Positions 12,157 to 33,710 of a DNA stretch of 64,000 nt are shown piece after piece. This stretch comes from Paramacrobiotus metropolitanus (Eukaryota > Tardigrada > Eutardigrada > Parachela > Macrobiotidae): NCBI RefSeq assembly GCF_019649055.1, contig NW_026570263.1:248001-312000 (forward strand), given 5' to 3'. A model generated the notes under the pieces. That model saw nothing but the letters and a program-made list of their open reading frames with translations. It was not told the origin of the DNA and did not search any database. The stretch's first letter is position 1; each line of letters begins with the position of its first letter. The translations under genes were made by a program, and so were the position numbers.

Positions 12157-12592
12157 TCTTGACTCCTCGCTAAACGATGTTCTTAAGCTGCCGGGCAGCA
12201 GTTAACTACAGATGGCCTACCACACACACGAAAGCACACGACAGGCTGACTCACCTCGATGATAGGGTCTAATGCGACGTCTGCAGAAGCACGCATCGGT
12301 TTATCTTATCAGAACAATGTTGCGCACACCGGTAACACAGACACTTTGTTTTCAATCCACTTGTCGATGCTTCTGGACGCATGAGATACGATTGGGCTGT
12401 TATTGGTTGCTAATACAGACTCCACCATACAGCCCAGCTGACAATGCTCAATAATTGTCAGCGTTATAACACGGGCAAATGGTTGTGTTGCTTAAAAGTG
12501 GCTAGCATCGCTCAGCGGCAAAGCATTGCACCCTTTCCCCGGCATTCGAAATTCGAATGCACCTATTACGCTTTCTTAGACATAATCTAGAA

Positions 12593-15163: not shown

Positions 15164-15707
15164 ACAATTTGTTCAGATGTACAATAATTGAATGCACGGT
15201 AGCTCAATGCTGGTTCAATACATCACACGGCCTATTCAATGTTTCCAAATCTTCTCGTAATTTCTTACGCTTACTAAGGGTTGGTTATTTTACACATGGA
15301 ACGATCCGGGCGAAGCGTTGCATGCGCATACGAAGCACTATGCGACTCTCGAGCATCGTCGTTTGACTGCATAATGGTTTCAAAATTAATTCGTAATAAA
15401 TAGCCGCTTTGGTGCACGCGTTTCCTGTATGGCCATTTATCATCATCATCATTCTTATCTCAGAACAATACTACACGTACCGGCAACCACAGCAGCCTTC
15501 TCGAATGCCTTGCTTGTAACCCAACAGACGCATGAGATAAGATAGTAAGCAAGAGAATGAATGACTTAGCTAAGAGAACTTCCTTGTAGAATATTGAGCT
15601 GACATCCGCAGTGCTGAGCTCTCGGCGAATGAACACTGTCCGCACAACAAGAATAGCCAGCGTCGCTCTTTCACAAGGCATGCCCTTCTTCCTCGCCTGA
15701 GAAAACT
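15164..15707. other. Spacer between the two vWA genes
   Basis: No gene seen. AATAAA at 15395-15400 could be the poly(A) signal of copy 1. Confidence 0.4.
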
Positions 15708-15740
15708 ATGAAGCCCGCTTCCCAGCAAGTTAGCTTAAAA

Positions 15741-18245
15741 ATGCTGATATCCCTTCTGTTACTATCCGTCGTCAGTGCGGCGATGGCACAGACGCCAACC
15801 CGTCGCGAGGCGACATTCCAAGCTCTCTCTAGATTGAGGGAGCTCATCTTCGTCGAAGCCTCCCTGGGAATGGCCAATCCCCACCTCCTTCCGCTGCCAT
15901 TACTAAGCACCGACGAGTGCGACGACCACCCTCAGCTCTTTGGCTTTCCCTTCTCCGCGCCGCATTTGCACGCGCTGCAACACATCATAGACGCCAATGT
16001 GTTCATCGACGGTGTCGCCAGCGGTCGTCGCGACAGCGTCGACTGGCACGCTGACACGCAGGCGCCGACGCCCGACGCCGAGCGAGTTCTCGATGAGTTG
16101 ACCCGCGCCGCCATCCAGACCATCAACGCGCGGCAGTTCCATGAAGCGCGCACGCTGATTGGTCAGGCGCTGCACATGGTCCAGGATCGTTCCAACCAAT
16201 CCGTGGCCGCCGCGGTGACCTTTCTGACCGGCATCCGTAACGCGACGATCGACCTGTTCCCGAACGTGCTGGGCATTCGTGGAAAAGCCCAGGGCAACGA
16301 TCTGATCATCGTGCTGGACACCACGTACCAGGAAGCAACAGAGACTAGGTTAGTCATGTTGCTGAACCGCCTCCTGATCCTTAATAACACGCTACCCAAA
16401 CGCCCGGCGGGTTTCGCGCTGTACACCTTTGACCGCGTGAATCCCGTCCCAAAATCGCATCCATACCAGACAACCATGAGCGGCTTCACCGACCTCCTGA
16501 CGAATCTAATGACGGCCTGTACCGCGAAACGGGATATTTGCGTCGACACCGATATAAGCCAGACGAACAGCCCCCGCCGAGCTCTGGAAGCGGTTAGTCT
16601 GGCGGCTCGCAACGCCGACAGTAGTACCACCATCATTCTCCTGACCGACGCCCCGCCGGTGGTTACAGACAGCGCCGCTGCGCCCCGCGTGGTCTCCGCG
16701 ATCCTGGAGAGCAAGCAGCAGCGATTGGTGGTCATCGGGGTCAACAACGCCACCAAGCAAACGGATTATGCGCGCATCGTTGAACGAACAGGAGGGAGCT
16801 TCATCAGCTTGCCGAATCTCCCGGGGCAATGGGATGCCGGGGAGGTGTTCCAGTACGCTGTTCGGGATGACTTGGCTCTGGTCGCGGTGGTCGACAGCTC
16901 ACGGGATGCTTCCGAGGAAATCGTGGTACCCCTATACGACACCGATAAACCCGCAGGAATTTGGATAGGCAAAGCAGCTGTCCGCATTTGCGATGGGAAC
17001 GACTAGCAGTCCTGTCGGATCCACGAAGCCGGGACCTGGGTGAACGCCAACGCAACGGCCGACGGAGGGTGGCGTTTCAGCGTTAAGCAACTTGATCTTG
17101 CAGCTCCTGTAGCGTGGTCAGTTCGGGCTTACATTTCGACACAGAGCTTTGCGCAACTGGATTTATATCGTCTGGACCCATTCTCCCGCGGTCACCCCGA
17201 ATACCAACGCGTGGAAAACGACCCTTTAGTCGGCGTTAATTACACCATCGTGACGCTGGGCTCGACCAACGCTAGCCTTTTGCTGGTGACCGCCACCGGC
17301 GAGGAGATCCCTGCTAATTCGTTGCAGTCCGACGGCCTTAAAACGCAGGCAGAGGTCACCGTTCCCGCGGAAACCTTCCGGATAAAGGTCACCGAGACGG
17401 TCAACGGTACAGTGTACAACCGCTTCACTGACATTATCCGGCCGAGCCGGGCCAACATCACCTTCGAATTCTCGCGCCCGGTGGAAGTGCAGGTGCCCGA
17501 TGGAAGAACGTGGGTCCGATCGAATTTCTTGGGGGAATTGGCGGGGCGGTTCACGGCAGCGGATAATCTGGGATACGTTAGCAAATCGAATATTGAGTGT
17601 TTCAACTCATCGATAGCGCACCCAAGTGGCGAGACGAACAGCATCACCGTTCCGCTGAGCGCCAATTCCAGCGTTAACTACATGGCCTTCGGCGTGGGCA
17701 AGGATCGCCTGGACGAGGATGCCGGCCTCGGTAATCACGTAGTGCGCCCGATGGTCCTGATCCCGGACGTCCCACCCCCTCCACTGCAATGCACCGCGGA
17801 CGTAACGTCTTATAATAACTGTCCGAAAGGTCCCCAGTGTGCCCAAGGCACCTGGAACACGACCCTGGTGTTCATCGATCCCAATAGCGGCTTCCTGGAC
17901 GTTCAACGCTTCTTTGTAGCAGAAAATGTCCAAGCCGGCCCTTATTCGCAAAACGCCACGGGCAGCTCGTCGACTCTATGGAACACGGTTAACGGGACGT
18001 CAGTATTCAGCATGTTTCTTTACAATTATCCTTGCTGCCATGCCTTCCAGTTCTCGCTGTTCGTGAACGGTGAGAACACAGGACGGAAATGCGAGTTCGG
18101 CTCGGTCCATCCGACAACGACAGCGGCGCCGGTGGACGAAGGACTGTCCGGCGGGGAGATCACCGGGATCGTCATCGGGGTTCTGGCGGGTGTGGCGCTC
18201 CTCGAAGGGATCGCCATCTTTCTGATAAAACGACGACGTTCTTAA
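15741..18245 (+). pseudogene. vWA-domain (VWA7-like) gene, copy 2, interrupted by one TAG
   Basis: Same architecture as copy 1: signal peptide (MLISLLLLSVVSAAMAQ), QALHMVQDRSNQS, vWA-like DLIIVLDTTYQEA, glycosylated C-terminal half, membrane helix (GLSGGEITGIVIGVLAG) and tail IKRRRS. The reading frame is continuous from 15741 to 18245 except for one TAG at 17004-17006, at the point where copy 1 reads KDGEFC. No frameshift is present on either side. It is therefore a very recent pseudogene, a truncated secreted vWA protein, or a readthrough gene (the stop is followed by CAG). If truncated, the product would lack the membrane anchor and be secreted. Confidence 0.78.
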
Positions 18246-19163
18246 CAATGCGTTCAGATGCGCAATTGCTGGTTGCTCTGGAGCTAAATGCCGCGTGCGG
18301 TTACAGCCTAACAATAATCTATGGATAACAGAAGATTCGGCGCTTTTTCGGAGAACAAATAGCCGGCTTTGGTGAAACCTAATGAAAATTATTGACGAAG
18401 AAAGGTACCATAACCATCGGTGTCATTCGAAAATCTAGGCCGACTGCTCAATATACCAAATCCGCTCGTAGCTTCTTACAATGTAGGACTAAATGGTCGC
18501 ATAGCCCCATACCCAGCATTCTGTACGCAAGCGGTGCAGTGCACTTGTACGAAACGGATATTTTGAACTCACTCGTACAGTGTACTGCGCTGCATGCGTG
18601 CTGAATGTGGAGATGTTGGGTATGCGACCATTTTGTCCTAAGCTGTACTTTTACTAAAAGTTGTCCTTTTACGTGAGGGACGACCTTAAAGTCTAGGGCA
18701 GCAAATTCAGCCTGCGAATCGGCGACCCGGTATCGTCTTAATTCTTGTGAACCTCACTGCACTGATGACCCAAACTCTTTTTCAACTTAAGCAAATTGTT
18801 GCGTACGCAGCACCATGTCACGCTGTACGGCTGTAGCACAGTCGTTTTAATGCATAATTTCTTTATTATTTTGTAATGCATTGCCGCTTAGTTGTGTGGA
18901 ACCCTGGTTTATTGTTTCATAGAATGTACTACCGGTATCTTATGTTGTTTTCTATCAGACAGAAGGTTCCACCGGTATCTGCACCTTAGACCAGTGTTTG
19001 ATCTTCACCTGAAGGTATTGGTTGATGTTATTCAATTGGTTTTTTGAAGTATTAGTAATATCCAAAAAACATTTGCCAAATCACGAAGAGCACAGGGTTC
19101 ACAGCTAGTTGAAAGCGTGTAGCTTTATAAGCGTGTAGACAGAGCGACAGCCAGCACGATCCA
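18246..19163. other. Intergenic, no gene seen
   Basis: A partial inverted repeat occurs at 18489-18520 and 18607-18645 (ATTTGGTCGC-type arms around TAGGACTAAATGGTCGCATA and its complement). Otherwise nothing recognisable. Confidence 0.4.
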
Positions 19164-20521
19164 TCAAGATGTATGCAACAGCAGTTGTACGCCGCTGTTG
19201 CAGGGCGCCGGCGCATAGGGCGGCAGATCGTGCCAAGTCGACGAGCGCTGATTGGGCGCGGTGCCGCATGTGAAGTTCTGACCGGACACCTGGGTGCCTC
19301 CGTTGATCTTGAACAGGCAGGCATACTGAAGAAAGATCGTCAGCGCCGGACAGCCGCACATTTCGTCCGTCGGGCAGAAAGGGTTATTGTCCACGCTCAG
19401 ACTGCTGAGGACGTTGTAGCCCAGCGAACGGAGAACGCATTCCGGTATGGATTCCAAACCGTTCCGGCTCAGTGACACCGTACCGATCGGTTGCGTCAAG
19501 ACGTAGGGCGCGGAACAGTAGAGGAATTGCAGCGCCGGCACTTGCCCGTCCAGTCTCACTGACTAGACGAGAACGCCATTAGGATAAGGATGATATCAGT
19601 TACTTTAAAAAATCAAGAACTTATTACAGCTGTAAGGACTGGGAACGGACTGCGCAACGGTCGACTACGTCATCACTGTCGCATACAGAAAACACTGCTG
19701 CGCTAATGCTTATCATAGTCCCACAGACTTTTTGTCCCTTTTAAAAGATATTCTGACGCTTCTTTCTCATCAACAGCTTTCTGATATTTTAAAAGATCAT
19801 ATTGAATACAGACACCTCAGTTTCGGGGGGCTATAAATAGAAATCTGCTGAGGAAACTGACAAAAACGGTGAAAAACGCCGCGCATCTCCCTCCATGGCA
19901 GCCGCCCTCGCGCGTATGCAAGAGAGATGACGTCAAAGGGTTGGTTACCAGTCCTTCTCACACTATAGTAAGTATTGGGAAGGTCTGTACACTGACGTAC
20001 CAATGATGTTGTAAAGAAGGGCTTGAAAACGGTCCAGTCGAGGCTGACGAGATGGTTCCCGGTTAAGATGACGCTCATCGTCGCTAACGAGCGATTCGCG
20101 CTGCGTTGGAACGCCGCTGGTCCGATGGAGGAAATATCGGAATTTCCGAAATCCAGTTCCGTTAACTGCGAGAATCCCTCGAGGAAGCCGTCCTCCAGGT
20201 GACCGATTTTGCTTCGGCCGATCTTCAAACTAACGAGCTGGCCCTGGACGTTATGGAGAAAACGCTTAGCGGCGATGCTGCGTTGTTCTCGTTAGTGAAT
20301 CCGAAGAAGTACACCGTTCGCAATGCGGTGAGGTCGCCCGGCAGCGGCGGCGCATCGGAGCGGAGGATATTGCCATTTGCGGTAGTACCGAATTGAATTT
20401 CCCGGACATCTTTACGGATTTTGGTGACGTCAAAGGTACCGGGGATGACCACGGAGGGACAGTAGAGGGTTGTGTTGCCTGTCGATCTATAGCTGCAGCC
20501 CGGGCCCGGCACGTCTGCGGT
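19164..20521 (-). pseudogene. Leucine-rich-repeat secreted protein, copy A, broken
   Basis: Read on the minus strand, the N-terminal part (from about 20521, after a CCGCAG acceptor) has cysteines, then PPLPGDLTALR. The frame changes near 20270, after which LRR-like text continues (KIGHLEDGFLEGF, LTELDFGNSDIS). The C-terminal part (19559 to 19164) carries LSRNGLESIPECVLRSLG and a capping motif NNPFCPTDEMCGCP followed by FTCGTA. This Cys pattern resembles LRR C-terminal caps of extracellular proteins. The two halves are separated by about 250 bases that could hold an intron. The frameshift suggests a pseudogene. Copies B (21.1-22.2 kb) and C (60.6-61.5 kb) are paralogues. Confidence 0.72.
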
Positions 20522-20639
20522 AAACGATCGCTTGTGAACACTTCACTGCAGCCATTTATTTTGCTAGCGCTGATTGATTACAAGTTAAAGATGGCTCCGT
20601 ACCGTATCGGCACAGCGGCAAATACAAATTCACGGGAAT

Positions 20640-20930
20640 CCAAAAGATCTGTCGCGTCACGTCCGGTCTCAGCGAATCCCAGAGATCCACTCTCCATCAC
20701 GCTTTCGTCCAGCCATACATAGACTACTGTGCTATGGCATAGTCGGCACCGTATTTGGGAGAACAGGAGAAGCTGATAAAACGGCAACACGCAGCCTTAC
20801 GGACCATCACGGATAACAAGGAGCCGGTAACACCGCAACTGTACCTACAGCTGAGTGTAATTAACCCATGCAGTCGATCGATGGCGCAAGCAGTATGGCT
20901 GCACAAGATCAGTAACCGGCAAAATACCAT
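20640..20930 (+). pseudogene. Relic of a non-LTR reverse transcriptase C-terminus
   Basis: The plus strand reads, across frames, QPYIDYCAMAW, LIKRQHAALRTITD and KEPVTPQLYLQL, then AVWLHKISN. This matches the segment of the non-LTR element at 62.5-63.4 kb reading QPHFDYGSDTW, LAKAQRKALRAISD, ERVTPELYQKL and AVWLYKIYN. It is a short, decayed insertion beside LRR copy A. Confidence 0.72.
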
Positions 20931-21140
20931 TTAAGGGGACCAATACAAGGTTTCTCTGCTCTGGTAAAATCACTAGCAGTGAGAAAAATAATGGCACTGC
21001 GTTTGTTCGTTGCAGTTCTGTTAATGAAAACTTGTTCTTTTCTTAAATTTAAAATTCTCTGGTAATTTTCTTTGCTGTTTACGCTTGCGCCAGTTTCGAA
21101 GCGCAAAGTTTGTCACACACGATTTCCGCTAATGCAAAAG

Positions 21141-22240
21141 TTACAAATAAGAGACATCCTGGCAAAAAACGTCGAAAAGCAGTGCTGCAACTAGTAGCAT
21201 CCAACTGGTCCGCCACAGCAACCGCCCGGCGTTCGAGCAAACGACGTTGGGCGGCAAATGGTTCGAATGCCACAAACTCTGATTGGATGCCGAGCCGCAG
21301 GTGAAGTTTTGGACGAACAATAACGGACTGCCCAGCAGGGCACGATCGCCGGCCAAGCAGAGAAACGGCTGCATCGCGGGGCAACCGCACATGGCGTCCG
21401 TCGGGCAGAAGGGATTGTTCTCCACGTCCATCGTTATTCTCCACGTTATGGTGTTGACGTTAAAGGTGTCTAGCATGCATTTTGGCAAAAACTCCAGCTG
21501 GTTATTGCCTAAGTACACGTGTTGAACTGGGTTTAGTGATGCGGAAATTACTAGAGCAGTTGATAAATTTCAATCCGGGACGCTGCCAGCGCATTTCCAG
21601 CATCTGCAACAACACAGAGTACGCACATGTGGAAATGAAAAATTGTAGGACCGAAAAATACGGAAATCAGCTTGTATATGTAAAACCTCGAACAGTCAAG
21701 CACTAATTTGCGTAGCATGCGCGAAAACGAAACATCCATTCTTTTGTCCTATGCTATAGGTAGAAGTTCTACCTATGGCATAAGACACCGTAGAAGCTAC
21801 TGGCAATCTACGCCCATTTCGGCAATCGGCTGAAAGACGGCCCAGTCAATGCTCTCCAGCCGGTTTGATTGTAGTTGGATAAATAGCCCTGGCGCGGATG
21901 TTTCTCGTTAGAAGGCCATCTTGCTAATATGAGAAATGTCACTCCCGGTGAAATCCAGGCGCCGCAGTTGCGAAAATCCCTGCAGGAAACCGTCTTCCAG
22001 GGAACCGACCTTGCTGTATTGGACCTCTAAGGTCTGTAGCTGCTCTTTAAAGTTGTCGACGAATCGCTTAATTAGGATGCTGGTTTTGTTTTCGCCAGCG
22101 AAACCTTCCAGGTAGACATCTTGAGTGCGGTGAGGTCGGCCGGGAGCGGCGGCGCGTTGGATGTCAGGATGCTGTTGCTGTCTAGTAGAATGAGCAGCCA
22201 CTGAGTGCCAGGAACACCCCAGGGGGCCGCGCAGTAACAC
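21141..22240 (-). pseudogene. Leucine-rich-repeat secreted protein, copy B, broken
   Basis: The N-terminal part (22240 to 21908) shows PPLPADLTALK in one frame and, after a shift near 22110, LIKRFVDNFKEQL, KVGSLEDGFLQGF and LRRLDFTGSDIS in another. The C-terminal part (21518 to 21141) has LGNNQLEFLPKCMLD and the cap NNPFCPTDAMCGCP, then FTCGSA. The intervening 390 bases include a short imperfect palindrome at 21750-21782. As in copy A, the frameshift falls near the start of the repeats, so an intact product is unlikely. Confidence 0.72.
21750..21782. repeat. Short inverted repeat, 15 of 16 bases paired
   Basis: TATGCTATAGGTAGAA, one base, then TTCTACCTATGGCATA. It lies between the two halves of LRR copy B. 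Confidence 0.6.
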
Positions 22241-22249
22241 CTGCCGGCA

Positions 22250-22773
22250 ATTAACTATACAATTAAATTTAATTTAATTTAAACAATAGGTATACGTAAT
22301 TTATACTAATTTAATTAGATTACGTAATTCATTAGCGTAAACAATGGCTAATTTACAGTTTATTTAATTAACGAAATAAAAAATACTACAGTACATCTGC
22401 TTTATTGAAAAAATTCCCGCTGCTTTATCCCGGTCACCAAAATACATGAAACAATCCCCGTACCACATTTGCAAAATATCACCCCCGTACCACGTATACA
22501 CCATTCAAAACAATTTTATCCCCGTACCGCGCGTATAACAAAAACAAATCATCCCTACCACCACGCGTACACATAACAAGAAAACAAATGACACTGCAAC
22601 CACTCCGATGCATTAACGAAGAAAAACAAAACATTTAGGCATCCACTCATTCCGAATTCCGCGTTCCGTCCACATCGCTGTTCCACTCAACGTCCTGCCA
22701 ACAGTACAAATATTAGTGAAAATTAAAGCGGTGACATTTTCTTTAAATAATTAGGTAGTGGAACGCGTACAGG
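22250..22773. other. AT-rich spacer downstream of the H3-fold gene
   Basis: No gene. TTTATT (AATAAA on the minus strand) near 22360 could be a poly(A) signal for the H3-fold gene. A phrase of the type CCCGTACCACGTATAC recurs three or four times at 22450-22570. Confidence 0.35.
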
Positions 22774-24919
22774 TTAGAACAAACGTTGTCGATTATGGAA
22801 CTGCTTCGCAGTCATCTCGCCGGCTGGCACGCGAGTTATGTTGCCGTCCACAGCAACAACAACACCGTTTGGCTTCCGAACGCCACCCAACAACTGCATA
22901 CCCTCGGCGGGACCCTCCGCTTCACGGGGCCGGATGAAATCAATGCTGGCTGAAAACATAAATAAATGCGGCTCCGTTATACACTAAAGTTGTAAAAATA
23001 AAGTACCGTTGCTTGGTTGGTCAGACGATGCCGAAGACGATGATGACGAAGGATCTTGCGCAGCGGCTGGGCGCTGTCCACTACGTGCAGCACGTTCTTC
23101 AGCGAAGCGACGCCGGTGCGCCGCTATCGCACGGTCATACGCTACAAGTGTTAACAACCCATAGAATGTACATTTGCTTAAGTGTGTGTACGCGTTCAAC
23201 GCCTTACCTCGGCGACTTGCCAAGAACGATGGTGAGCACGCTGAACCTGGCGGGCCGATGGCTATACGGGGCTGTGGATGTGGCGTTGGCGGCTGGCTGG
23301 GATTCACCCCATTAGGCCGTCCCAGGCAGATACGTTTTGCACCCCCGGCACCACGACGCACTGCTAAACACATGAATGCAAAGTTATGCGTATGTACATG
23401 GTATAGTATTTGTACTCAGAATACGGTACCTGGTTGAACAGAGCGCGGTGGGGTTGGGCTCGGTGTTCGTCGATGAACCGGTGCGGTTGTTCGTGTACCG
23501 CGAGATCCACGCGCTCCACGTGCTGGACGTCCACGTCGTACCCCGCGCGAGCAGACGGCAGTTCCCGGGGCTCTACTTGGGGATCGAGTGCGCTGCACTT
23601 CAGCGGCAGCCGTACGGCCGCGGGTCGACACACCTTTTCCACGCCCACGAATGGCCCGTGCAGGCTGCATACCACGTCCACGCGTGCCTACAAAACAGTT
23701 CTGTGCATAATTAAGAAGTAAACGCAGTAGAATACCTACACGGAGTCGGACTGGTCGGGATCGGCGCGACTTCTTCATCTTCGTCAGACGACTCCAGCGC
23801 CAAAGGACGCTTCCACCCAGCGTGGCCGGTTGGTTTCACGGCTACGGCCGTTGCAGAACGCTGTGGTGCGGCAGCTGGTACATACAGGTTTTGGCGGCGC
23901 TGCTTCTGATAGTTCCGATATTTATTAATGCCACCTTCTGGACTGAACCGGGGATCGTTGCGCCAGTTTTGCTCCCGTGCATATTGAGCAAGGTCAAGAT
24001 CCCGCGGCATCACGGTCACGCGCTGTGCATGATCAGCCGCTGCGGCGCCCTTCTCGCAAATCTTAATAAAGAGGAACTCCGTCTTTTCCTGTAAGGCAAA
24101 TAGCGCAGCGGAGTGGATTGAAAAGTCCGGGCGCATGCTTTCCATGATCTCCCGCACGAGGCGCTGAAATGCCATGCGACCGCAAATTAACTCAACAGAA
24201 TTCATTCGTTCGCGAAGTTTCCGCATGGCTTCGCGTCCAAGTCGACGGGTCAAAATGCGGTCCGGGTCCGGCGCACGCGTCGACGAGCCAGCTGCACTCA
24301 CTGCACGCGCACCACATTCAGCAGTCGTACCACTGGCACTACTATGTAGTGCATCTTCGTCAGATTCCGCGGCATTCGACTCCACAGCGGCGTCCATACC
24401 GGCCTCGGGCTCCTCTCCAACACCCATTTCCTCCAAATCCGCCCGGTTGGCTGCCGCGTCCGCTTCGTCTGCTCCTTCATCGCCGGCTAGCTCCACACTA
24501 TCAGCCGTTGGAGTACGAACCGTGCTTATCATACGGTTCACGGCCGCCAGTGTGCTACAAAAAAAAATCGAATTTGGTTAGCACTAACTTGCTGTAACGT
24601 ACCGCATTATGCACAGTGACTACCAAATTCGAATATTTCATTTGCACAATTGGAAGTTATTGCACCGCGTACTGTACCTCATCGACGCCTCGTCTCCGGT
24701 CTGTGCGGGAGTGTCGTGCTCACTGTGTCCGGATGTGCCGGCTTTGGGCTGTGGAGTGGCATTCCCTTCTTCGTCGGAGGAGTCGCTGTCCCCGATGTCC
24801 GTGGTCAGTGGTTTACCAATCTTACGACGGATCACATGCTCCGTAGACGATGGGGGTGTGGTACGGGGTAGCCCAGTTGAGACGGGCAGCAGCTCCGGGA
24901 TCTCCATGGAATCATCCAT
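22774..24919 (-). CDS. Histone H3-fold protein with long acidic N-terminus and Arg/Pro/Gly-rich C-terminus, six exons
   Basis: Exons on the minus strand are 24919-24678, 24554-23740, 23687-23430, 23363-23208, 23141-23007 and 22949-22774. All junctions are GT-AG, phases match throughout, and the total is 594 codons with the stop. Residues 1-180 are acidic and Ser-rich. Residues about 181-275 match the H3 core: AMRKLRERMNSVELI (alpha N), AFQRLVREI (210-217), HSAALFALQEKTEF (alpha 2) and HAQRVTVMPRDLDLA (256-270). Loop 1 has the canonical H3 length. Residues 353 to about 480 are RG/RGR- and Pro-rich (GTRGRGMQPAR, NPSQPPTPHPQP), and the last 58 residues look folded. The ATG follows TTGAAG. The exon 2 donor was taken as CCGT|GTAGGT because it alone keeps the frame open. 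It could be a centromeric H3 or a lineage-specific variant. A viral origin is less likely, given six exons. Confidence 0.8.
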
Positions 24920-25294
24920 CTTCAACAAAAAGATACTAATACTCATTAACAAACAAATTGCACCGAATACCTGCTCTAAACCATCCTGTACCATAATTGC
25001 TGTATATGAGTACAGTATATATGAATAGTGTAAAATTTCGAATTTGGTAAGCAACTTGATCTACGAATACTTTAACTAGTATGTAATGCCAACCAAAATC
25101 GAACTTTTATTTCAGCAGAATCTGTACAATAACAAGTTTTTTACACCGCAGAACGCAACATATCACAAAAACAGAAGATCACATCATCAAAAAATGGAAG
25201 AACAGACATCAAAGAGTCAAAATACAGAATCTATAAAGAAACAAGTATATACAAAATCAGAATTAATTTGTACAAGAAATCATATGTACAGTAT

Positions 25295-25945
25295 TTACAA
25301 GTCGGTATGCTCATTGATCACCGACATTTCATTGCTCTCGTTGCTTAGAGCTTGTGCCAGAGGAGCCACGGTGCAACGGCGTCGAACTATCACCACGGCA
25401 GTGGATATGGCCGCGATAAACGCAAGCACACCGATGATGGCGTACACCACATTGGGCGCACTAAACGCTGAGTCGGGATCCTCGGCCGGCGGCTTGGTCA
25501 TTGGAACAGGACCATGGTCGGTGGCAATGGATGTCGCAGCGCTGCTGGGCGATATACCCGTGCCCGAATCAGTCGTGTTCAGCGCCACCGTCGTCGTGGC
25601 AGTGCTAGGGAGCCGGCCGCAGTCTGACAAGACCGTAAAGTTTACGGTCGGAGGCTCACGACAATCCAGGATCGGATTTCCACGGACATCAAACAGCCGC
25701 AGCCGTGGGAAAAAGTGGGCTAGCGCGGTGTATGGGACGCCGTACAGTCTGTTCTTCTGGAACAAGACAATCTGTACCCACTTTTCCGGGGAGCGAAGTG
25801 TAGGCACTGTGGTCAAGTCACGGCCGGCACAGTTGACCACGCCTTCCATACGTTCGCACTGACAGTGGCCAAAGCAGCGCGTTAATACACCGACGACGTT
25901 GCTGGCCACTGACAGTACAAGCAGACAGGTGAACAGGCGGGGCAT
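25295..25945 (-). CDS. LRR-type I membrane protein, 216 residues
   Basis: From the ATG at 25945 the protein starts MPRLFTCLLVLSVASNVVGV, a signal peptide. An LRR N-terminal cap with clustered Cys follows (CFGHCQCERMEGVVNCAGRDL, shown split as CFGHCQC and VVNCAGRDLTTVP), then one or two LRRs (LYGVPYTALAHFFPRLRLFDVRGNP) and a short C-terminal cap Cys. A Ser/Thr-rich stalk leads to a membrane helix (VVYAIIGVLAFIAAISTAVVIV), a basic stop-transfer RRR and an acidic tail. A TTGTTGCAG immediately before the ATG could also be a splice acceptor, so an upstream exon is possible. It differs from the 19-22 kb LRR family in lacking NNPFCPTD. Likely a cell-surface adhesion or recognition protein; ligand unknown. 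Confidence 0.75.
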   Translation of the reverse strand: MPRLFTCLLVLSVASNVVGVLTRCFGHCQCERMEGVVNCAGRDLTTVPTLRSPEKWVQIVLFQKNRLYGVPYTALAHFFPRLRLFDVRGNPILDCREPPTVNFTVLSDCGRLPSTATTTVALNTTDSGTGISPSSAATSIATDHGPVPMTKPPAEDPDSAFSAPNVVYAIIGVLAFIAAISTAVVIVRRRCTVAPLAQALSNESNEMSVINEHTDL

Positions 25946-26101
25946 CTGCAACAAAACGATTAGTTAGCAGCATACTGACTACGAATGTACATTCAGACAA
26001 GACGCACACGCATTTGACTCGGACGCGTTGACGTAGTTATTCACAGATACGCATACAGTTTCTGAAAATACATTTACCTTTAATTTCGCGCGAGTTCGAA
26101 A

Positions 26102-26854
26102 ATGTCTTTAGAAAATGCCGCTAACGCGCTGTTCCCGGTAGGAACTGGGGAGCGTATGATGAAAAACGGCGTGGTATACTACAGCACTGTTCAGCAGGAC
26201 GACGTTCATATGCTACAAGGAGTTTATAGGGATCTGTTTGCCCGTTTTGAAGACGCTCAGAAGTATTATCCTGACCTTACTATTGGCGTTAGAGCGCAGT
26301 TTGTTAAGGAAACATGGTTTCATCAACAGCCGCTTGGAGAAGTAGCCTTTGCACTGTATCCTAAAGAGGAAAAGGGGACTAATATCGCCTTCCGTGAGAA
26401 TCCAACTAAGTGCACAGAGGAAAATTGGAAAGAATGGCGCCCTATTGTCCGTGATTTGGCACATGGTCGTATGCGGAACTATTTGAAGTATCAAATCAAG
26501 AAATGGCGCAAAGCCTGCCCCAGTGTCGGCTATCGTATCCAGCAAGTTATTACGTTTGAGTGCCCAGACGGTAGTGGTGTCAAGGCTTGGAATGAGACAT
26601 GCACTGGTATATGTGATGACGACGACGATATCGGTCCTCCCGTACCAAAATTCGACTATTTCTATCAACGTGTGGATAAATTCGAAAAGCTGAAAAAACT
26701 GGAACAAGGGCGCGTTCCTTTCACTCAACCAGGCGATCTGGGGGAAGAAAAACGAGACACTATTGGCGGGTTTACACCACCGGTACATCCATCTTGGGGC
26801 GACGAGTTTGACGGAAAGCCGGCTGACTTACTCATTTTTGACGATGCCAACTGA
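26102..26854 (+). CDS. Unrecognised ORF, first of the Maverick-like block, 250 residues
   Basis: The start codon has a good context (GAAAATGTC) and the frame is intact. The protein is Lys/Glu-rich with a middle stretch rich in aromatic residues, an Asp run (CDDDDDIGPP) and a C-terminal Pro/Gly segment (GGFTPPVHPSWGD). There is no signal peptide or membrane helix. By position, in a capsid/packaging block, a structural role is possible, but I recognise no family. After its stop a GTAAGC...TTTATAG stretch looks like an intron before the next ORF. Confidence 0.55.
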   Translation: MSLENAANALFPVGTGERMMKNGVVYYSTVQQDDVHMLQGVYRDLFARFEDAQKYYPDLTIGVRAQFVKETWFHQQPLGEVAFALYPKEEKGTNIAFRENPTKCTEENWKEWRPIVRDLAHGRMRNYLKYQIKKWRKACPSVGYRIQQVITFECPDGSGVKAWNETCTGICDDDDDIGPPVPKFDYFYQRVDKFEKLKKLEQGRVPFTQPGDLGEEKRDTIGGFTPPVHPSWGDEFDGKPADLLIFDDAN

Positions 26855-26951
26855 TCAACCACGACTGGTAAGCTTTTGTTGTGCAAATTTAGTTTACAAT
26901 TTCTTGTTTGAAAACTATTTTTTAATTTTTCAATTTTTATTTATAGAAATC

Positions 26952-27197
26952 ATGGATCCTGAAACGCCACCACCGATTCCCGTAGAGGAAAAGAACTCTC
27001 GTGGAATTCTCATATGGGCTCTATTTTACGCCATACCGTTTGTGTTCTCTCAACTGTTCCGCTTAGTTGCTGTCATTGTTTTAAGAGTCACGGACCGATT
27101 TCCTATTCACAACATCATAATGCCCTTGATTTCGTTCGTTTTAAATGAATCACGTCGTTTGCTTCTCGGACGTAATAATGGAAGTGCAGTTGAATGA
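26952..27197 (+). CDS. Small membrane protein of the Maverick-like block, 81 residues
   Basis: The ORF starts MDPETPPPIPVEEKN, a Pro-rich head, then has a hydrophobic stretch (ILIWALFYAIPFVFSQLF) and a second one (IIMPLISFVLN). It overlaps the ATPase ORF start by up to 50 bases in another frame, typical of compact viral-type genomes. Function unknown; a virion membrane or minor capsid protein is a guess. Confidence 0.5.
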   Translation: MDPETPPPIPVEEKNSRGILIWALFYAIPFVFSQLFRLVAVIVLRVTDRFPIHNIIMPLISFVLNESRRLLLGRNNGSAVE

Positions 27198-27835
27198 TGT
27201 GTTTTATCACCCAACTTCTATGTTAATAAGTGGGAATTCTGGTTCTGGTAAAACCACGTTTGTTGCAAATATTCTCCGATTCAATAAACTCTCGCAAGTT
27301 CCGGAACGGGTTTATTGGTTTTACAAGCAGTACCAGGTTTTATATGATCAATTATTAAAAGAAGGATTTCCAATTACTTTTATCGAGGGTTTACCAGAAG
27401 AAATTTCCAAACCAAATTTTTTTGATAAAAAGCAAGTTAACGTTTGCGTGATTGACGACTTGCACTTGGAAGAAAAAACGAGCAAACACGTTGCCCAATT
27501 ATTTTGCAACGGCGGACGTCATTCCAATACAACGGTTATCTATCTGACACAAAATCTGTTTTTTAAACAGAGTTGTGGACGCGATATACGGCTAAACGCA
27601 AAAGTTATTGTTTGTTTTAAAAATCCTCAGGACCGGCAGCAGCTCAAATCCTGGGACGTCAACTTTTTCCTAACAAACCTAATTATTTTATGGAAGCCGT
27701 CACGGCCGCTTTCGAGAAGCCTTTTGGTTATATAGTTATTGATTTGCAGCACAATATTAGCGATCGATATCGACTGAAATCGTCCATTTTTGGCGAGCAT
27801 TTTCCTGGTTTTACCGAAATTTATATACCGGCATA
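27178..27835 (+). pseudogene. Packaging ATPase (FtsK/HerA, adintovirus/Maverick type), frameshifted near the C-terminus
   Basis: This motor would pump DNA into capsids. The first frame (ATG at 27178, or 27145) has Walker A GNSGSGKT, an aromatic YWFYKQYQ segment, Walker B with VCVIDDLHLEE, then GGRHSNTTVIYLTQNLF and CFKNPQDRQQL, the order typical of this ATPase family. At about 27648 one base is out of step: the annotated frame ends at 27735, while the conserved C-terminal region continues in another frame (EKPFGYIVIDL, then HFPGFTEIYIP) up to a stop at 27833-27835, one base before the next ATG. The tight end-to-start spacing supports the longer original gene. This copy is therefore damaged, or the base is an assembly error. 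Confidence 0.82.
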
Positions 27836-28165
27836 ATGGAGCGAAGTAAAACCGTTTCCAATATTGATTTATTGTCCTCCATAGCTAAGAGCAAGCCGAA
27901 ACTTGCAAAAGCTATCATTAAAAATTCGGAAGACACACTGATTGACGCCATTTCTGAATGTGCTCTTCAGATTGTTGAAGGCACGGTTCCAGTTTCTGAA
28001 TCGTCAAAAGCTCAACGGGTTCGACGTGTATTACCTTATTTAAAGTTACTGTCTAGAAAGTCTGTTTCCCGAAAAACTAAACGAAATTTTCTGTTAGCAA
28101 AAGGTTTTGCTTTATTGTCTTTAATTTTGCCTCCTGTGCTAAATTTTGTTCTTGGAAACGCTTGA
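27836..28165 (+). CDS. Small basic protein with hydrophobic C-terminus, Maverick/adintovirus-like pX type
   Basis: 109 residues, intact. The pattern AKSKPKLAKAIIKNSEDTLIDAISECALQI (split here by family position) and the end KGFALLSLILPPVLNFVLG match a small protein that commonly follows the ATPase in Mavericks and adintoviruses, in particular the ISECALQIVEG core and the basic SRKTKRNFLLAKG segment. In those elements it is proposed to be a core or minor capsid protein. Assignment is by pattern and gene order, not by a search. Confidence 0.6.
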   Translation: MERSKTVSNIDLLSSIAKSKPKLAKAIIKNSEDTLIDAISECALQIVEGTVPVSESSKAQRVRRVLPYLKLLSRKSVSRKTKRNFLLAKGFALLSLILPPVLNFVLGNA

Positions 28166-28167
28166 AA

Positions 28168-28896
28168 ATGGCACGACGAATGTTTTTGCTAAATGAAGAC
28201 CAGCTACGTGCTGTCAGGAAATCACGGAGCCTGTCTCCTGTACCTGTACAGCCTACGCATGCTCATTTGGACTATTACGCCAGTCCACTGACCAAGTCAT
28301 ACCGAGATATGACAAACTCACTGCAGAATCCGACAATGTCCAGCAGACAGCGTTTAAATGCTCATAGCGACGCTATGGAGCGTTACAACAACTATATAGG
28401 ACAGGCCACATTGCCTATGCAACCGCATCCTGCGCAGCATCCTTTCGACGAAACTGATGCTGCAACGCATGGTAGCGATAAGTGCACAGATAGAGTGGTC
28501 TTTCTTCTACCTGAGAAGCAGCAGAATAACGCACGCCATTTGCTTACTCACTTACAAGAGTACGGTAATTTTTCAATTGGGAAAAACCTGGAACTTGCAG
28601 TAAACGGAATTTTGAAAAACGGAACGAACGTTGTGGATTTAATCCGTTGGCTAACTACACCTACAAATCCAGGACCTTCACAAACTCCTCCCAATGGAAT
28701 AGAAGAAGTATTGGAGGCGATGAAAAGTTGCAATGCGCCGGCTACCTTATTGCCGAATATGCAGCGTCGTAGAGCATATTTGGATTTTGAACCTTCCGAT
28801 TTTTCATTTAATACACCAGAACGGAACAACAGTGGCAAACGAAGAAGCAACGCAACCCCCGCAACGGTTCGAAAAAACTGGAAACACTTTGGCTAA
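28168..28896 (+). CDS. Last ORF of the Maverick-like block, 242 residues
   Basis: The ORF begins MARRMFLLNEDQL at 28168, overlapping the stop region of the previous ORF; an alternative ATG lies two codons upstream at 28162. The central segment reads VVFLLPEKQQNNARHLLTHL then GKNLELAVNGILKNGTNVVDLIRWL (both shown only in part as motifs FLLPEKQQNN and GTNVVDLIRWL). This resembles a recurring Maverick/adintovirus ORF with a gt-i-gsNi-dLi core. The C-terminus is basic (NSGKRRSNATPATVRKNW). Role unknown; probably virion-associated by gene order. Confidence 0.55.
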   Translation: MARRMFLLNEDQLRAVRKSRSLSPVPVQPTHAHLDYYASPLTKSYRDMTNSLQNPTMSSRQRLNAHSDAMERYNNYIGQATLPMQPHPAQHPFDETDAATHGSDKCTDRVVFLLPEKQQNNARHLLTHLQEYGNFSIGKNLELAVNGILKNGTNVVDLIRWLTTPTNPGPSQTPPNGIEEVLEAMKSCNAPATLLPNMQRRRAYLDFEPSDFSFNTPERNNSGKRRSNATPATVRKNWKHFG

Positions 28897-28963
28897 ATCA
28901 ACAAAATTTCGGTTTTGGTGTGCATCTATGTTGAAAAACCAACTCTGTTAATTGTATTGCGTA

Positions 28964-31429
28964 CTAAAATTCAACCGCATTCAACCGATTTGCATTCAAC
29001 CGACTTTGGATGCCAACAGGGGGACGAGCTGGAGGGCGGATTCTCTCAGTGACGTTAGGACGATACCAAGCGTGGTAAAATTTTATGCGAAGTGTCGGAT
29101 GGGAGCGGACGTAATGAACAGATGCGCCTTCATCGCATGTTCGTTCCATTTTTTCTTCAACCGTAAAGCTGAGTTGACAGAGATGGTCACGAATGTGGAT
29201 CTCTCCTGATTTTAATTGGAACAACTGTCCCTCGCTGTTAAGAACCGTGTTAGCGCGACACTTCGTATGATTTTCGTCGGTAGTCCACACGTAGGTTACG
29301 TGCGGATGGACACTGGACTGGGCGAGAATAGACGAAGAAATTTCGCCGGTGGCGGACAGTACTGGACAGTCGTCACACGTCGTTTCGAGGGTGACGTTCT
29401 CTAAGAGACAGGTAGTGACGTCGGCACGGCGGAATTGGTTCCACCGGCGGTCAACCACAGGTATTGCGTCGTATAACCAAGTACGTCCACTTTTGGTCAT
29501 GGCGTTTCCACTACATGTCTTAGTTCTGACCATGTCACGGCACTGATCAGCGGTTACCGGGAGTGCTACCTCAAAATTCTGGCTGTAATAGCCGTCGAAG
29601 AAAAACCCTTCTTGTATCGTACTTTTCATAATCCTACGGCAAGCGGAGCCGGAGAAAACTCGAGTAATGTTCTTATAGTCGAGAAGATAGTACTTGACGT
29701 CATGAGTTTCTCTGATGGGGCCGTCTAACTGCTCGCACCGAATTAGCGCAGAAAGGTCAGCGATTCCCACGTATTTACTGCGTAAGCAGTCGCATAGCTT
29801 TTTGTTCAGTCCGGAAGTACCCGACAAGGTACAGAGCAGAAGAAGAACGGAAAGTGTCACAAAGCTGGGTAGACCAGCGCGCATGCCTTTTGCTGGAACT
29901 GGAGGCGGCGGTGCCTCGTTTTCTGGTCCTGAGTCATCGCTCGTAAGACCTTCCCGATTTCCTGGTTTAGCCGGAGTATATACGGGGTTGTGGACGGTAA
30001 GCCCCTTTCTCTGTGGTTCTTCGTCCAAATTCACAGTTACGGTAGATTCCGCGTCGGAATCAGAATATGCTTCCAGAAGAGGTGGACTGTCAGAGTCCTT
30101 CCTCGCAGTAGAAGCGTTTTCCGTCATTGGAAACAAATGCGCGCAATGAGGACATATGTCGCTAACAGCGCATTCTGCGTGATATTTGTGGCCGCGAATA
30201 CACTCCACCATCGGCGGAGTGCATTCTGCCAACACCACTTCCGTACCGCAAACGCACATTCGGTGGCGGTAGACGGCTATGAGACATTGGGTACAAAGGA
30301 AGACGGGACGACCTTTCTGGTACAGGACGCGGGCATCTGTTGGTTTATTACATCTTCCATTATTTTTACGCGTTTCGCAAAAACGAATGTTAAAAACGTC
30401 CGTCGTTCTGGATGAAATAACCTTTGCGTCTTCTCGATTCCTGTTAAGGAGTACGAAGTCCTGACCGATCGCCCGCAGGGCATTGTTCGTAAAGCATTTA
30501 CAGTCAAAACTGATATCCGTATCGTGGTACGCGACATGGCATGTGTGTTCCCTGGACGAAGTCGGAAAAATACCAATAACAGGAGAACTGTGTATCGGTA
30601 AAAACGGCACCAAAGCTTTAAAAGCTACTGCTCTGGCTTCGTCGTTGTGGGGAATCAATGTCAGAAATTGATATATTAACGGATGATTGTGAAAATTTCG
30701 GCGGTAGGTTTCGTAAGTGTCGGCAAGTTCACCAAGATTTTGCCGCAAAAGCCAAGCCCAGAGCCGTTTTGTCAGGGGCGCAGAATCGGGATGCGTTGTT
30801 TTAGCGTAGCGGAGTACTACACAGACCTGATCAGTGGGATCTGCGTAAGAATTTTCCTCAACTATGAAAAACGAATGCGCAAAATCGTGAGCTATTCTGT
30901 TATTGAAATCCCGTTGCGCGTGTTCATAAGAGACTTGACCGGGAGGATACCCCAGATGTCGATGGTAAACTCTGGTCGTCATACAATGGTCACAATGTTC
31001 GGGTTCTCGCGTACGATGCCCTGCCTGACAACTTTTTACGGTCAAATCGTTGGGATGCTGGAAGTAGCCGTCGGTAGACAACTCATGGTTGGCGGCTTTA
31101 TAAAAGCATTCCAGACAGAAGAAATCTGGGACAAACTTATTATATAAATTAAGACCGTAACGTTGAGCCCGATTGCTGCACCTCACGATCGGTGCATTGA
31201 GCTCGGAGTAATTAATGGTCTGGGCATCGCATCGGCCCGGGTCAGTATTACACTGAAAGGTCAACGAAGGCGTCGTCAAATCAAGTTGCGTCGTTGCGCA
31301 TCTGCATGCGAAAGGCGCAGGAAAACCGCGTGTCAATCCGTAATTCCCTACGGCTTGCTTAGCTAAGTAAAGTGACGGAAAGAACGGTTTGAGCGGTATA
31401 TCTGTGTCAATTCTGGAAAGGGCACTCAT
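28964..31429 (-). CDS. Env-like polyprotein: Cys/His-rich N-terminal half plus glycoprotein-like C-terminal half, 821 residues
   Basis: The first 500 residues contain several Cys/His clusters, ending in a RING-like pattern at about residues 385-430 (CVCGTE, HKYHAECAVSDICPHC). An acidic Pro-rich linker follows (PPPPVPAKG). A hydrophobic segment (LPSFVTLSVLLLLCTLSG, about 518-538) could be an internal signal or membrane anchor. The last 281 residues look like an ectodomain with many Cys and N-glycosylation sites and a WLYDAIPVVDRRW block recalling chuvirus-type class III glycoproteins captured by retroelements. No C-terminal membrane anchor remains, and the end is a tandem repeat of CGGTTGAATGC, so the 3' end seems lost. 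The frame is open a further 19 or so codons upstream of the ATG. The family assignment is inference. Confidence 0.62.
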   Translation of the reverse strand: MSALSRIDTDIPLKPFFPSLYLAKQAVGNYGLTRGFPAPFACRCATTQLDLTTPSLTFQCNTDPGRCDAQTINYSELNAPIVRCSNRAQRYGLNLYNKFVPDFFCLECFYKAANHELSTDGYFQHPNDLTVKSCQAGHRTREPEHCDHCMTTRVYHRHLGYPPGQVSYEHAQRDFNNRIAHDFAHSFFIVEENSYADPTDQVCVVLRYAKTTHPDSAPLTKRLWAWLLRQNLGELADTYETYRRNFHNHPLIYQFLTLIPHNDEARAVAFKALVPFLPIHSSPVIGIFPTSSREHTCHVAYHDTDISFDCKCFTNNALRAIGQDFVLLNRNREDAKVISSRTTDVFNIRFCETRKNNGRCNKPTDARVLYQKGRPVFLCTQCLIAVYRHRMCVCGTEVVLAECTPPMVECIRGHKYHAECAVSDICPHCAHLFPMTENASTARKDSDSPPLLEAYSDSDAESTVTVNLDEEPQRKGLTVHNPVYTPAKPGNREGLTSDDSGPENEAPPPPVPAKGMRAGLPSFVTLSVLLLLCTLSGTSGLNKKLCDCLRSKYVGIADLSALIRCEQLDGPIRETHDVKYYLLDYKNITRVFSGSACRRIMKSTIQEGFFFDGYYSQNFEVALPVTADQCRDMVRTKTCSGNAMTKSGRTWLYDAIPVVDRRWNQFRRADVTTCLLENVTLETTCDDCPVLSATGEISSSILAQSSVHPHVTYVWTTDENHTKCRANTVLNSEGQLFQLKSGEIHIRDHLCQLSFTVEEKMERTCDEGASVHYVRSHPTLRIKFYHAWYRPNVTERIRPPARPPVGIQSRLNANRLNAVEF

Positions 31430-31520
31430 GCAACTCGTAAACTCCGCGAGACGAAGATCGTCAAGAAAAGTATTGTTTACAGCTGTTATACGCTCGATTT
31501 TATTGGAATCCAGAAATGGT

Positions 31521-31751
31521 TCAAGATAACTTTTTTAGCACCTCTAATCGTGCAAACGATACCGCGCGTGCACTGGGCACTTCCGAAATGACAGTTGTCA
31601 AAACTGTGTGACGATTGGCAAGAGGATGAAGCTCATTAACAGCACTCACGTGACAGAAATGGTCAAGTACGTACCGGTTGCCCAAAGTCGTTGGGTTCAG
31701 AACGGTGTACCTGTGCATTGGTACCTGACGGCCGTTGGGATCAACGCCCTA
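31521..31751 (-). other. Open segment with a splice acceptor between pol and env
   Basis: On the minus strand a long pyrimidine tract (CTCTCTCTCTTTTGTTGTAG) ends at about 31752, then an open stretch of about 76 codons runs to a stop near 31521, in a different frame from env. In errantivirus-like elements env is made from a spliced mRNA whose acceptor lies just after pol, which fits this position. The change of frame near a run of six A (about 31533-31538) would disconnect it from the env ORF. Confidence 0.45.
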
Positions 31752-31901
31752 CAACAAAAGAGAGAGAGAAAATTAATTTTGGATAATTAAAATACAAAGC
31801 TATCATATAGAGTAAGCTATTTGTTTTATATCTTTTTTTTTTAATTTTGTTTTCTTTTTATTTGATTTTAACCGATGATACATGAAACAATTTCCATTTT
31901 A

Positions 31902-33665
31902 CTAATTACTTTTCTCTCTTTTGTTTAGGCGGTCCGAACGTCGAACCGTCTCCATTTCGTTAGTTCCGGTCATCGGAACGTCAGGTGGGGTTGTGGACAT
32001 TGGATCGTCTGTTTCTCGACCCTGTTCGAGATCAACGTTATCCAAGTCTCTTTTCCCCTTTTTAAGTGGTTCGGCCAGAACTGGCTCAACGTACGGTGTA
32101 TCCAAGCGTTCGCTATAGTGGCGCAAACGCTGTACATGGACAACCTGAGTCTTAGGCCGACCGGGAGAAACAATTTCTTTTGGCGGTCCCTTTAAAAGGA
32201 CTAGGTCGCCAGGGGCAAATGCGTGTTCACGCCGGGTTACGTTAAAGCGCGGAGCCGTCTTATCTTGTGCGTGGTTCGCCATGAGACCGGCAACCTCGCG
32301 TAAGTTACTGAGGTACGTCTGAATTTGACGTGGAAGCGTTTCATCAGGCTCTTCGAAATCGAGATTTTCACCAGGATTAATAATATTATCGATGGGATGA
32401 GTCGGGTTATACCCGTGTAACAATTCAAACGGAGAGACCTTAACCGTGTCATTTACCACTGTGTTCAAGGCAAACGTTATTGGTATCACAAGGTCATCCC
32501 AATTTCTATGTGTCGGGGACACATAGTGCGCAATCGCTTTAACGAGAACACCATTTATCTTTTCGGTAAGGCCATCGGCCTTAGGATTGCATGCCGTAGT
32601 CGTACGGTGAGCAATGCGCGCTAGGCGCAACAAATATTGCAAGAAACTTCCGGTGAAATGAGTCCCGAGATCCGTAAGGATCGACCGTGGGCACCCATGT
32701 CTGGAAATAACTTGCTCGTATAGAAAATGCGCCGCATTGGCGGCAGTTGCAGCCTTAACCGGCCGCGATTCGATCCACTTTGTCAAGTGATCGACAGCAA
32801 CAATTATGTACCGATTCCCTTTACTGCTCGGTGGTAATGGACCAACGTAGTCCATACCCACACATTCGAAAGGTTGACCGATTTTGATACGTTGAAGAAA
32901 ACCATATGGTGGTTTTAGCGGTGGTTTCAGTGCCTGGCAGGAATGGCATGAAGAAATGTATTCCGCAACATCGTGTGCCATGTTCGGCCAGTAATATTTA
33001 AGGTACAGGGCTTCGAAACACCGGGTAATTCCGGGATGACCCAGATCATCGTGATATGCCCTTAAGAGTGTGACCTTTAGGGAACTAGGCACCACAATGA
33101 GATAGACCGGATCGTTGCCGCGAAATACGATTTTATGCAAAATTTTCTCCTTTACGACGTAGTGCTGAATTCGCGTTCGAAATCTTGCGGTGTCGGTGGC
33201 ACCGTTCAGGATTCCCAAGATCTTTTTACAGAATTCGTCGGTTCCCTGTAATGCAGGGATGTCGACCGGTGAATCTGGTACGACTAGGGTGCAAATCTGC
33301 GGTAACGATGGTGGTAAAGGTGATCGGGAGAGAAAGTCAGCTACGTTATTGGCACTCCCTTTCCGGTACAGGATCCTTATGTTATATGGGCGCAAAGCCA
33401 GGATCCAACGAGCGAGACGACCACTCGGGGTCGGCGTTTGAAACAAAGGAATTAAGGAGTTATGGTCTGTCACTACTGTGAACGGTTTCGGACCTCCGAG
33501 GTAAAAATGGAATTTGTCAGTAACCGACCAGAAAATAGCGAGGAGCTCTTGCTCGGACGTATGATAGTACTTCTCTGCATCGGTTAACGAGCGACTTGCG
33601 TAGACAACAACTTTGAAGCCATCAGCTTCGCGCTGTGTTAGAACGGCGCCCAGTCCATCGAGATT
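31902..33665 (-). pseudogene. Pol remnant of Ty3/gypsy type: RNase H, zinc-binding domain, integrase
   Basis: The remnant lacks protease and RT. RNase H text starts at DGLGAVLTQ and includes YHTSEQELLAI, VVTDHNSLIPLF and ADFLSR. The integrase follows with an HHCC zinc site (DLGHPG then CHSCQALK), the first catalytic Asp in GMDYVGPLPP, the second in LTDLGTHFTG and the Glu in LTEKINGVL. The C-terminus (APGDLVLLKGPP) is the usual gypsy integrase tail. The open frame extends upstream to 33710 but the first 16 or so codons are not pol-like, marking the truncation point. Without RT the copy cannot be autonomous. Confidence 0.86.
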
Positions 33666-33710
33666 CGGAAATTTTTTTCGAGAATTGTCAAATTTTAGTT
33701 TGAATTTCAA

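Follow-up and report, generated by a model that had tools for sequence, protein, structure and literature searches.

A histone H3-like gene probably captured by a Polinton-type virus-like element lineage in the tardigrade Paramacrobiotus metropolitanus

Single histone H3 genes are found in the Manila clam xenomavirus and in NCLDV genomes, where they occur without partner histones and are thought to act with the histones of the host. Some of these viral H3s display extended N-terminal tails, and their histone folds are 73–87% identical to a host H3. A bracovirus histone is a further example of a virus-borne single histone with an extended tail that acts in host chromatin (for all of these, the available part of PMC9145170). 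Histone-like genes termed "Histoid" are present in xeno-class adomaviruses, once beside adintovirus-like virion proteins (available part of PMC11071296). For Polinton-like viruses, no histone protein gene is described in the available parts of PMC12721341 and PMC12220804; the latter reports six histone 3′-UTR stem-loops in a PLV/virophage set. The terms Polinton and Maverick are absent from the main text of Talbert and colleagues (PMC9145170) and from PMC11222145, and neither appears in the available part of PMC10145014. The available part of PMC11244446, on viral insertions, has no histones found, and a survey of tardigrade transposons names Maverick once and histone never (PMC11071193). A literature search, consisting mostly of titles and abstract openings, yielded no published report of a Polinton-borne histone. 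Thus viral H3 is already known, and for H3 in Polintons we found no report in the literature so covered.

The window analyzed here is a 64,000-nt stretch of contig NW_026570263.1 of P. metropolitanus. It carries a gene for a 593-residue H3-like protein within the left part of a Polinton-type mobile element (Table 1). The gene is similar to the xenomavirus and NCLDV H3s in being a single H3 without partner histones, but differs in its core, which has 41% identity to human H3.3, in its long head and tail, and in its presence in a multi-copy integrated element (viral H3s from the available part of PMC9145170). The adomavirus Histoid is likewise a histone-like gene in a small animal DNA virus, once with adintovirus-type virion genes, but it is paired with a papilloma/polyoma-type helicase, whereas an rve integrase and a type-B DNA polymerase are found here; the comparison is one of gene content (available part of PMC11071296). 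The bracovirus histone, unlike the window H3, is an H4, belongs to a polydnavirus and has high identity to insect H4 (available part of PMC9145170). The element itself is similar to Polinton/Maverick elements and adintoviruses in its A32-like ATPase, rve integrase, DNA polymerase, inverted ends and length of 22 kb. The explanation that appears best, with a probability of roughly 0.8, is that a histone H3 was captured by a Polinton-type virus-like element lineage in P. metropolitanus and kept as an element gene.

Table 1. Coordinates of the H3-like gene and surrounding element features (window positions)
Feature	Position	Strand	Evidence or remark
Gene for 593-residue H3-like protein	22774..24919	-	six exons, GT-AG introns, open frame
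Exons of H3-like gene, window copy	24919-24678, 24554-23740, 23687-23430, 23363-23208, 23141-23007, 22949-22774	-	
H3 core (alpha-N helix + histone fold), residues 180-276	23969..24259	-	Pfam Histone, PDB H3, dN/dS
Left part of Polinton-type mobile element	22184..28970	.	unit repeated on eight other contigs
Left terminal inverted repeat arm, 205 nt matched	22184..22388	.	91%, inverted, vs right end of C18 element
Cargo gene, small leucine-rich-repeat protein	25295..25963	-	LRRNT E 0.0017, under Pfam cut-off; inside repeated unit
Element ORF, no match	26084..26854	+	inside repeated unit
A32-like DNA-packaging ATPase	27145..27735	+	Pfam Pox_A32 1e-7
Element ORF, no match	28081..28896	+	inside repeated unit

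The sequence-only reading of this DNA had joined six exons into one frame, and this model is confirmed at the sequence level. All ten splice sites of the five introns are GT-AG, the joined frame has 593 codons followed by a stop, and the copy on C18 (contigs are given as C numbers) is of equal length when spliced; the gene model is therefore regarded as real. The window exon limits were applied to four aligned copies. The C18 copy keeps 10 of 10 splice dinucleotides, the start and the stop, and also has 593 codons. The C84 copy is open over 543 codons with three splice dinucleotides missing, the C266 copy is broken (2 internal stops, two splice dinucleotides gone), and in the C95 copy the frame is gone, interrupted by 20 internal stops. 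Partial copies are found at C9:239056 and C442:12850.

A profile search gives a significant histone match for the core: Pfam Histone matches the exon-2 frame at 2.9e-17, over positions 109–199 of that frame. A PDB search matches H3 chains to the same frame up to 7.9e-18, the top ones being H3.Y, H3 and H3.2; CENP-A is not named among the best 60 of 174 matches. A chance fold match is ruled out by these two values. The histone fold is ungapped against PDB H3 chains (two alignments shown) and in the H3-core alignment, and the alpha-N helix is present. The core, which the sequence-only reading had placed at residues 181–275, one residue shorter at each end than counted here, is thus a true H3 histone fold.

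Outside the core the protein departs from H3. The N-terminal tail of canonical H3 carries K4, K9, K27 and K36; the window protein is without this tail and has instead a head of 179 residues, which is acidic (37 D/E vs 11 K/R). The C-terminal tail consists of 317 residues with 56 K/R vs 20 D/E, 16 RG/GR pairs and 37 Pro. A long acidic head and an RG/Pro-rich tail had been described before, as had the changes within the core, and the counts and the core alignment agree with both: by the H3 numbering assigned from that alignment, Ile is found at loop-1 Phe84 and Gly at Thr107, and loop 1 is of H3 length. The core retains His113, Ala114, Arg116, Thr118, Asp123 and Leu126, which we take to be H3–H3 contact residues, and Arg49, Arg69 and Arg72, presumed DNA-contact residues. 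Arg63, Arg83 and Lys115, which we likewise assume to contact DNA in H3, are replaced by Gly, Ser and Gln, so nucleosome formation may be weakened.

The possibility that the gene is the centromeric H3 (CENP-A) of the tardigrade, raised by the sequence-only reading, has to be weighed against these features. CENP-A displays a longer loop 1, Trp at Phe84 and Ala at Thr107. The window protein shares with CENP-A a divergent H3 core and a long head, and its core is constrained, but it has no loop-1 insertion, carries Ile in place of Trp, and is encoded by a multi-copy element gene. Its core is also closer to human H3.3 (41% identity over aligned positions) than to human CENP-A (33%). Relatives of the element H3 on C19, C36 and C16 do carry the CENP-A-like loop-1 Trp; the top PDB match of C19, an H3.3 chain, has a loop-1 Trp too, and the AU test does not reject (p 0.15) a tree that joins the window family with C26 and human CENP-A. 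Among the other H3 genes there is, however, a far stronger CENP-A candidate. In the H3-like protein of C26:419706-419981 (L048:1383-1988), loop 1 is longer by 3 residues, Phe84 is replaced by Trp and Thr107 by Ala; this protein is the best CENP-A candidate of P. metropolitanus. Since the window gene is multi-copy element cargo with an H3-length loop 1 carrying Ile, and since the C26 candidate exists, it is not considered the centromeric H3; loop 1, copy number and the C26 protein rule out this identity, which is judged very improbable. The other suggestion made before, a new H3-derived chromatin protein, holds at the level of descent. The sequence-only reading as a whole was supported in part, and it overlooked the Polinton-type element of which the gene is a part.

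In a tree of 21 H3 cores, 3 of 17 inner branches are well supported. Besides the grouping with human CENP-A given above, four others were not rejected: all nine element-type rows together (p 0.38), the same rows minus two C103 rows (p 0.35), the element-type rows with the CENP-As and C26 (p 0.29), and C26 with the CENP-As (p 0.39). None of the five groupings being rejected, the tree favors no single origin of the element H3. The host H3-like genes on C15, C34 and C47 (two) (L013, L019, L035, L036) include some with Arg/Ser-rich heads, and their frames break where host H3 genes carry an intron.

Values of dN/dS indicate that the core of the element H3 is under purifying selection (0.06–0.16). 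In the window group the core gives 0.15 for C43–C84, 0.16 for C18–C84 and 0.15 for C43–C18, and two pairs of the C16/C9/C36 group give 0.06 and 0.07. Outside the core, the exon-2 frame gives 0.33, 0.33 and 1.64 for the same three window-group pairs and 1.07 and 0.92 for the two C16/C9/C36-group pairs; the ratio thus approaches or exceeds 1 in three of the five pairs, with small counts and few changes in the recent ones. Whole-frame values range from 0.23 to 0.86 across eight pairs, the ninth (C16–C19) being saturated; the frames run stop to stop with some intron codons included (for the window gene, some 16 of the 191 codons beyond the core). For C16–C36 and C9–C36, the core shows about four times the synonymous divergence of the remaining frame (C16–C36, 0.38 vs 0.10), and recombination between elements is a possible cause.

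The complete open frame of the window copy, retained although its element is truncated, would also be expected if the tardigrade had domesticated an element-derived H3 for a use of its own, such as one in the germ line. But the C18 frame is equally open and the C43–C18 pair is recent (dS 0.09 over the whole exon-2 frame), so the intact window frame needs no host function, and domestication appears quite unlikely.

Polinton/Maverick elements are roughly 15–25 kb long, end in inverted repeats, encode a double-jelly-roll major capsid protein and give a 6-bp target-site duplication on insertion. A repeat search with window positions 17500–34000 shows that the unit 22184–28970 recurs on C18, C266, C84 and C95 at 78–93% identity. 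On C250, C441, C393 and C115 the unit is shared at 78–93% mainly from about 24763 on, and the remainder consists of weaker pieces (about 68–79%). The left terminus is common to the six copies compared (window, C18, C84, C95, C393, C115), and their flanks are mutually dissimilar. On the right side the eight other copies, except for C266, which differs, run on together beyond 28970; the window copy ends at 28970 beside a different, Gypsy-like repeat that starts at 28987. The H3-like gene is thus situated in the first 6.8 kb of the element.

The C18 element is 22,036 bp long (982,665 to 1,004,700) and is bounded by 222-bp inverted arms that are 97.7% identical. A search up to 1,002,700 gave nothing above shuffles for the right inverted repeat, which was found further right. 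An exact target-site duplication was not found at C18, the one copy inspected (flanks cacgtg and atgtgg). The portion of C18 that is absent from the window encodes a 463-residue candidate capsid protein, a very basic 171-residue protein, an rve integrase (Pfam, 4.4e-12) and then a type-B DNA polymerase in two overlapping frames (DNA_pol_B_2, 3.2e-19 and 1.8e-6); the truncated window copy therefore has no polymerase. Ten relatives of the 463-residue protein are present in the protein database, but Pfam gave no match and PDB none that is credible (best E 0.11); the protein is a putative capsid protein by the gene set around it. The A32-like ATPase is 96% identical between C18 and the window, where its frame has 196 codons vs 230 in C393, C18 and C84. 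ATPase, integrase, polymerase and inverted ends together mark the H3-bearing unit as a Polinton-type element by gene content and termini.

For the two flanking ORFs of the unit (26084 and 28081), searches of Pfam and PHROG at E 0.1 gave nothing. The LRRNT-type protein, a second possible host-derived cargo, displays a probable membrane segment (by eye). Other LRR-like genes lie at window positions 21141–22273 and 60598–61122.

The P. metropolitanus assembly searched is 169.8 Mb in size. The window ATPase has at least 151 matches in it (150 of 352 candidates scored) and DNA_pol_B_2 at least 169 (79 of 507 candidates scored), so that Polintons are numerous in this genome. There are 64 Pfam Histone matches, of which 63 were translated together with the window's own. 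Divergent H3-like loci are situated 2,744–3,633 bp from an ATPase match in 13 of 14 cases tested, C36 being the sole one without a nearby ATPase among the matches listed. When the partial copies at C9 and C442 are counted, neither of which has an ATPase within 4 kb among the matches listed, the linkage is 13 of 16. Random placement of 352 ATPase sites gives a probability of 0.017 that a locus lies within 4 kb, the H3 loci having been chosen after the list was seen. The H3-like loci of C3, C26, C103 and C251 and the host H3 genes show no ATPase within 4 kb among the matches listed (by eye). On C103 (two) and C251 there are further divergent H3-like frames with a loop-1 Trp, possible remnants or host copies.

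The nine top-scoring ATPases among the matches listed are all in H3-bearing elements, and no histone match lies within 70 kb of any of the next 17 ATPase loci (66–81% identity). The H3 gene is therefore not essential to the wider element group. This pattern agrees with an H3 that entered one element lineage once and diverged afterwards, a history that trees of so short a core cannot prove. Neither the ATPase search nor the H3 core alignment found relatives in viral contigs. A protein search with the exon-2 frame yielded one distant CENP-A-like match, and one with the H3 alignment yielded 50 proteins, of which the 11 read include one "uncharacterized" P. metropolitanus protein.

The region is rich in repeats and its copies are 78–93% identical, as would also be seen if a host H3-like gene had been copied by segmental duplications around an element. 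Against this, the copies have a common left end with unrelated flanks and the inverted ends lie outside the gene; these termini rule out segmental duplication. The distance to the ATPase is moreover near-constant in groups whose cores have 35–51% identity to the C19 core, and this explanation is extremely improbable.

Capture by the element lineage being preferred, the presence of the H3 in several element copies suggests that the elements use a stolen histone on host chromatin. The core would fold with host H4, giving dimers or tetramers that may associate with element DNA or become part of host chromatin. In place of the normal H3 tail the protein has its acidic head and basic RG/Pro tail, so such particles would be without the host H3 tail marks. 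The likely benefit would be that element DNA is compacted or sheltered, or that host silencing is blocked, during replication and packaging. It is most likely, in our estimate, that the window protein pairs with host H4 and shapes viral or host chromatin. Eight CENP-T_C/H4-type family matches are found in the genome and are assumed to include H4, since host histone clusters contain several of them. None of the eight is on a contig with an H3-bearing element, so the partner H4, unless too divergent to detect, would be that of the host. Nine loci showed no histone 3′-UTR stem-loop at the Rfam gathering score, an uninformative result because the host histone clusters among the nine also gave no match.

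A histone condensing element DNA inside the capsid, in the manner of a core protein, would agree with the linkage to a packaging ATPase and with the basic, RG-rich tail of the protein. Its head is acidic, however, and C18 already has the separate very basic 171-residue protein beside the candidate capsid gene; a role in the virion is thus unlikely.

A second histone-like gene, similar to H2A, is present as five near-identical divergent copies (C31:159027, C90:103391, C158:28918, C41:261481, C10:708406), open on C31, C90 and C158 and with stops on C41 and C10. The one sequence searched against PDB matches H2A at 1.1e-17. In four of five, an A32-like ATPase lies 8.9–10.3 kb away on the same strand. 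Another Polinton group thus probably carries a captured H2A-like gene, with a linkage that is weaker than that of H3, as it is judged by distance and strand. A wider idea, tentative and on balance unlikely, is that animal Polintons build their own chromatin from separately captured host histones, the H3 from a CENP-A-like ancestor, as an aid to persistence or segregation in germ cells; such an ancestor is possible because of the loop-1 Trp of the C19, C36 and C16 relatives.

H3 is one of the most conserved proteins known. The element H3s combine a constrained core with rebuilt tails, seven element-type cores having 37–52% identity to human H3.3, and would serve as natural variants for learning what an H3 core must retain. 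The idea of stolen histones acting against host silencing, which concerns transposons and DNA viruses, would become directly testable in an animal. There is also a caution, namely that divergent "H3 variants" from genome scans can be element genes.

Other mobile elements and genes are found in the window. The Gypsy-like element (28987–33710) carries RNase H and integrase, with copies up to 97% identical on many contigs; downstream of pol is an 856-residue ORF with the look, by eye, of a zinc finger and a membrane glycoprotein. Positions 659–4488 contain a tyrosine-recombinase retroelement, probably of DIRS/Ngaro type (Phage_integrase 2.3e-6, zinc-knuckle ORF). The neighboring genes at 12506–18245 appear paralogous by eye, and the first of them matches the VWA7 N-terminal domain (8.5e-7) and probably has a membrane segment at its C terminus.
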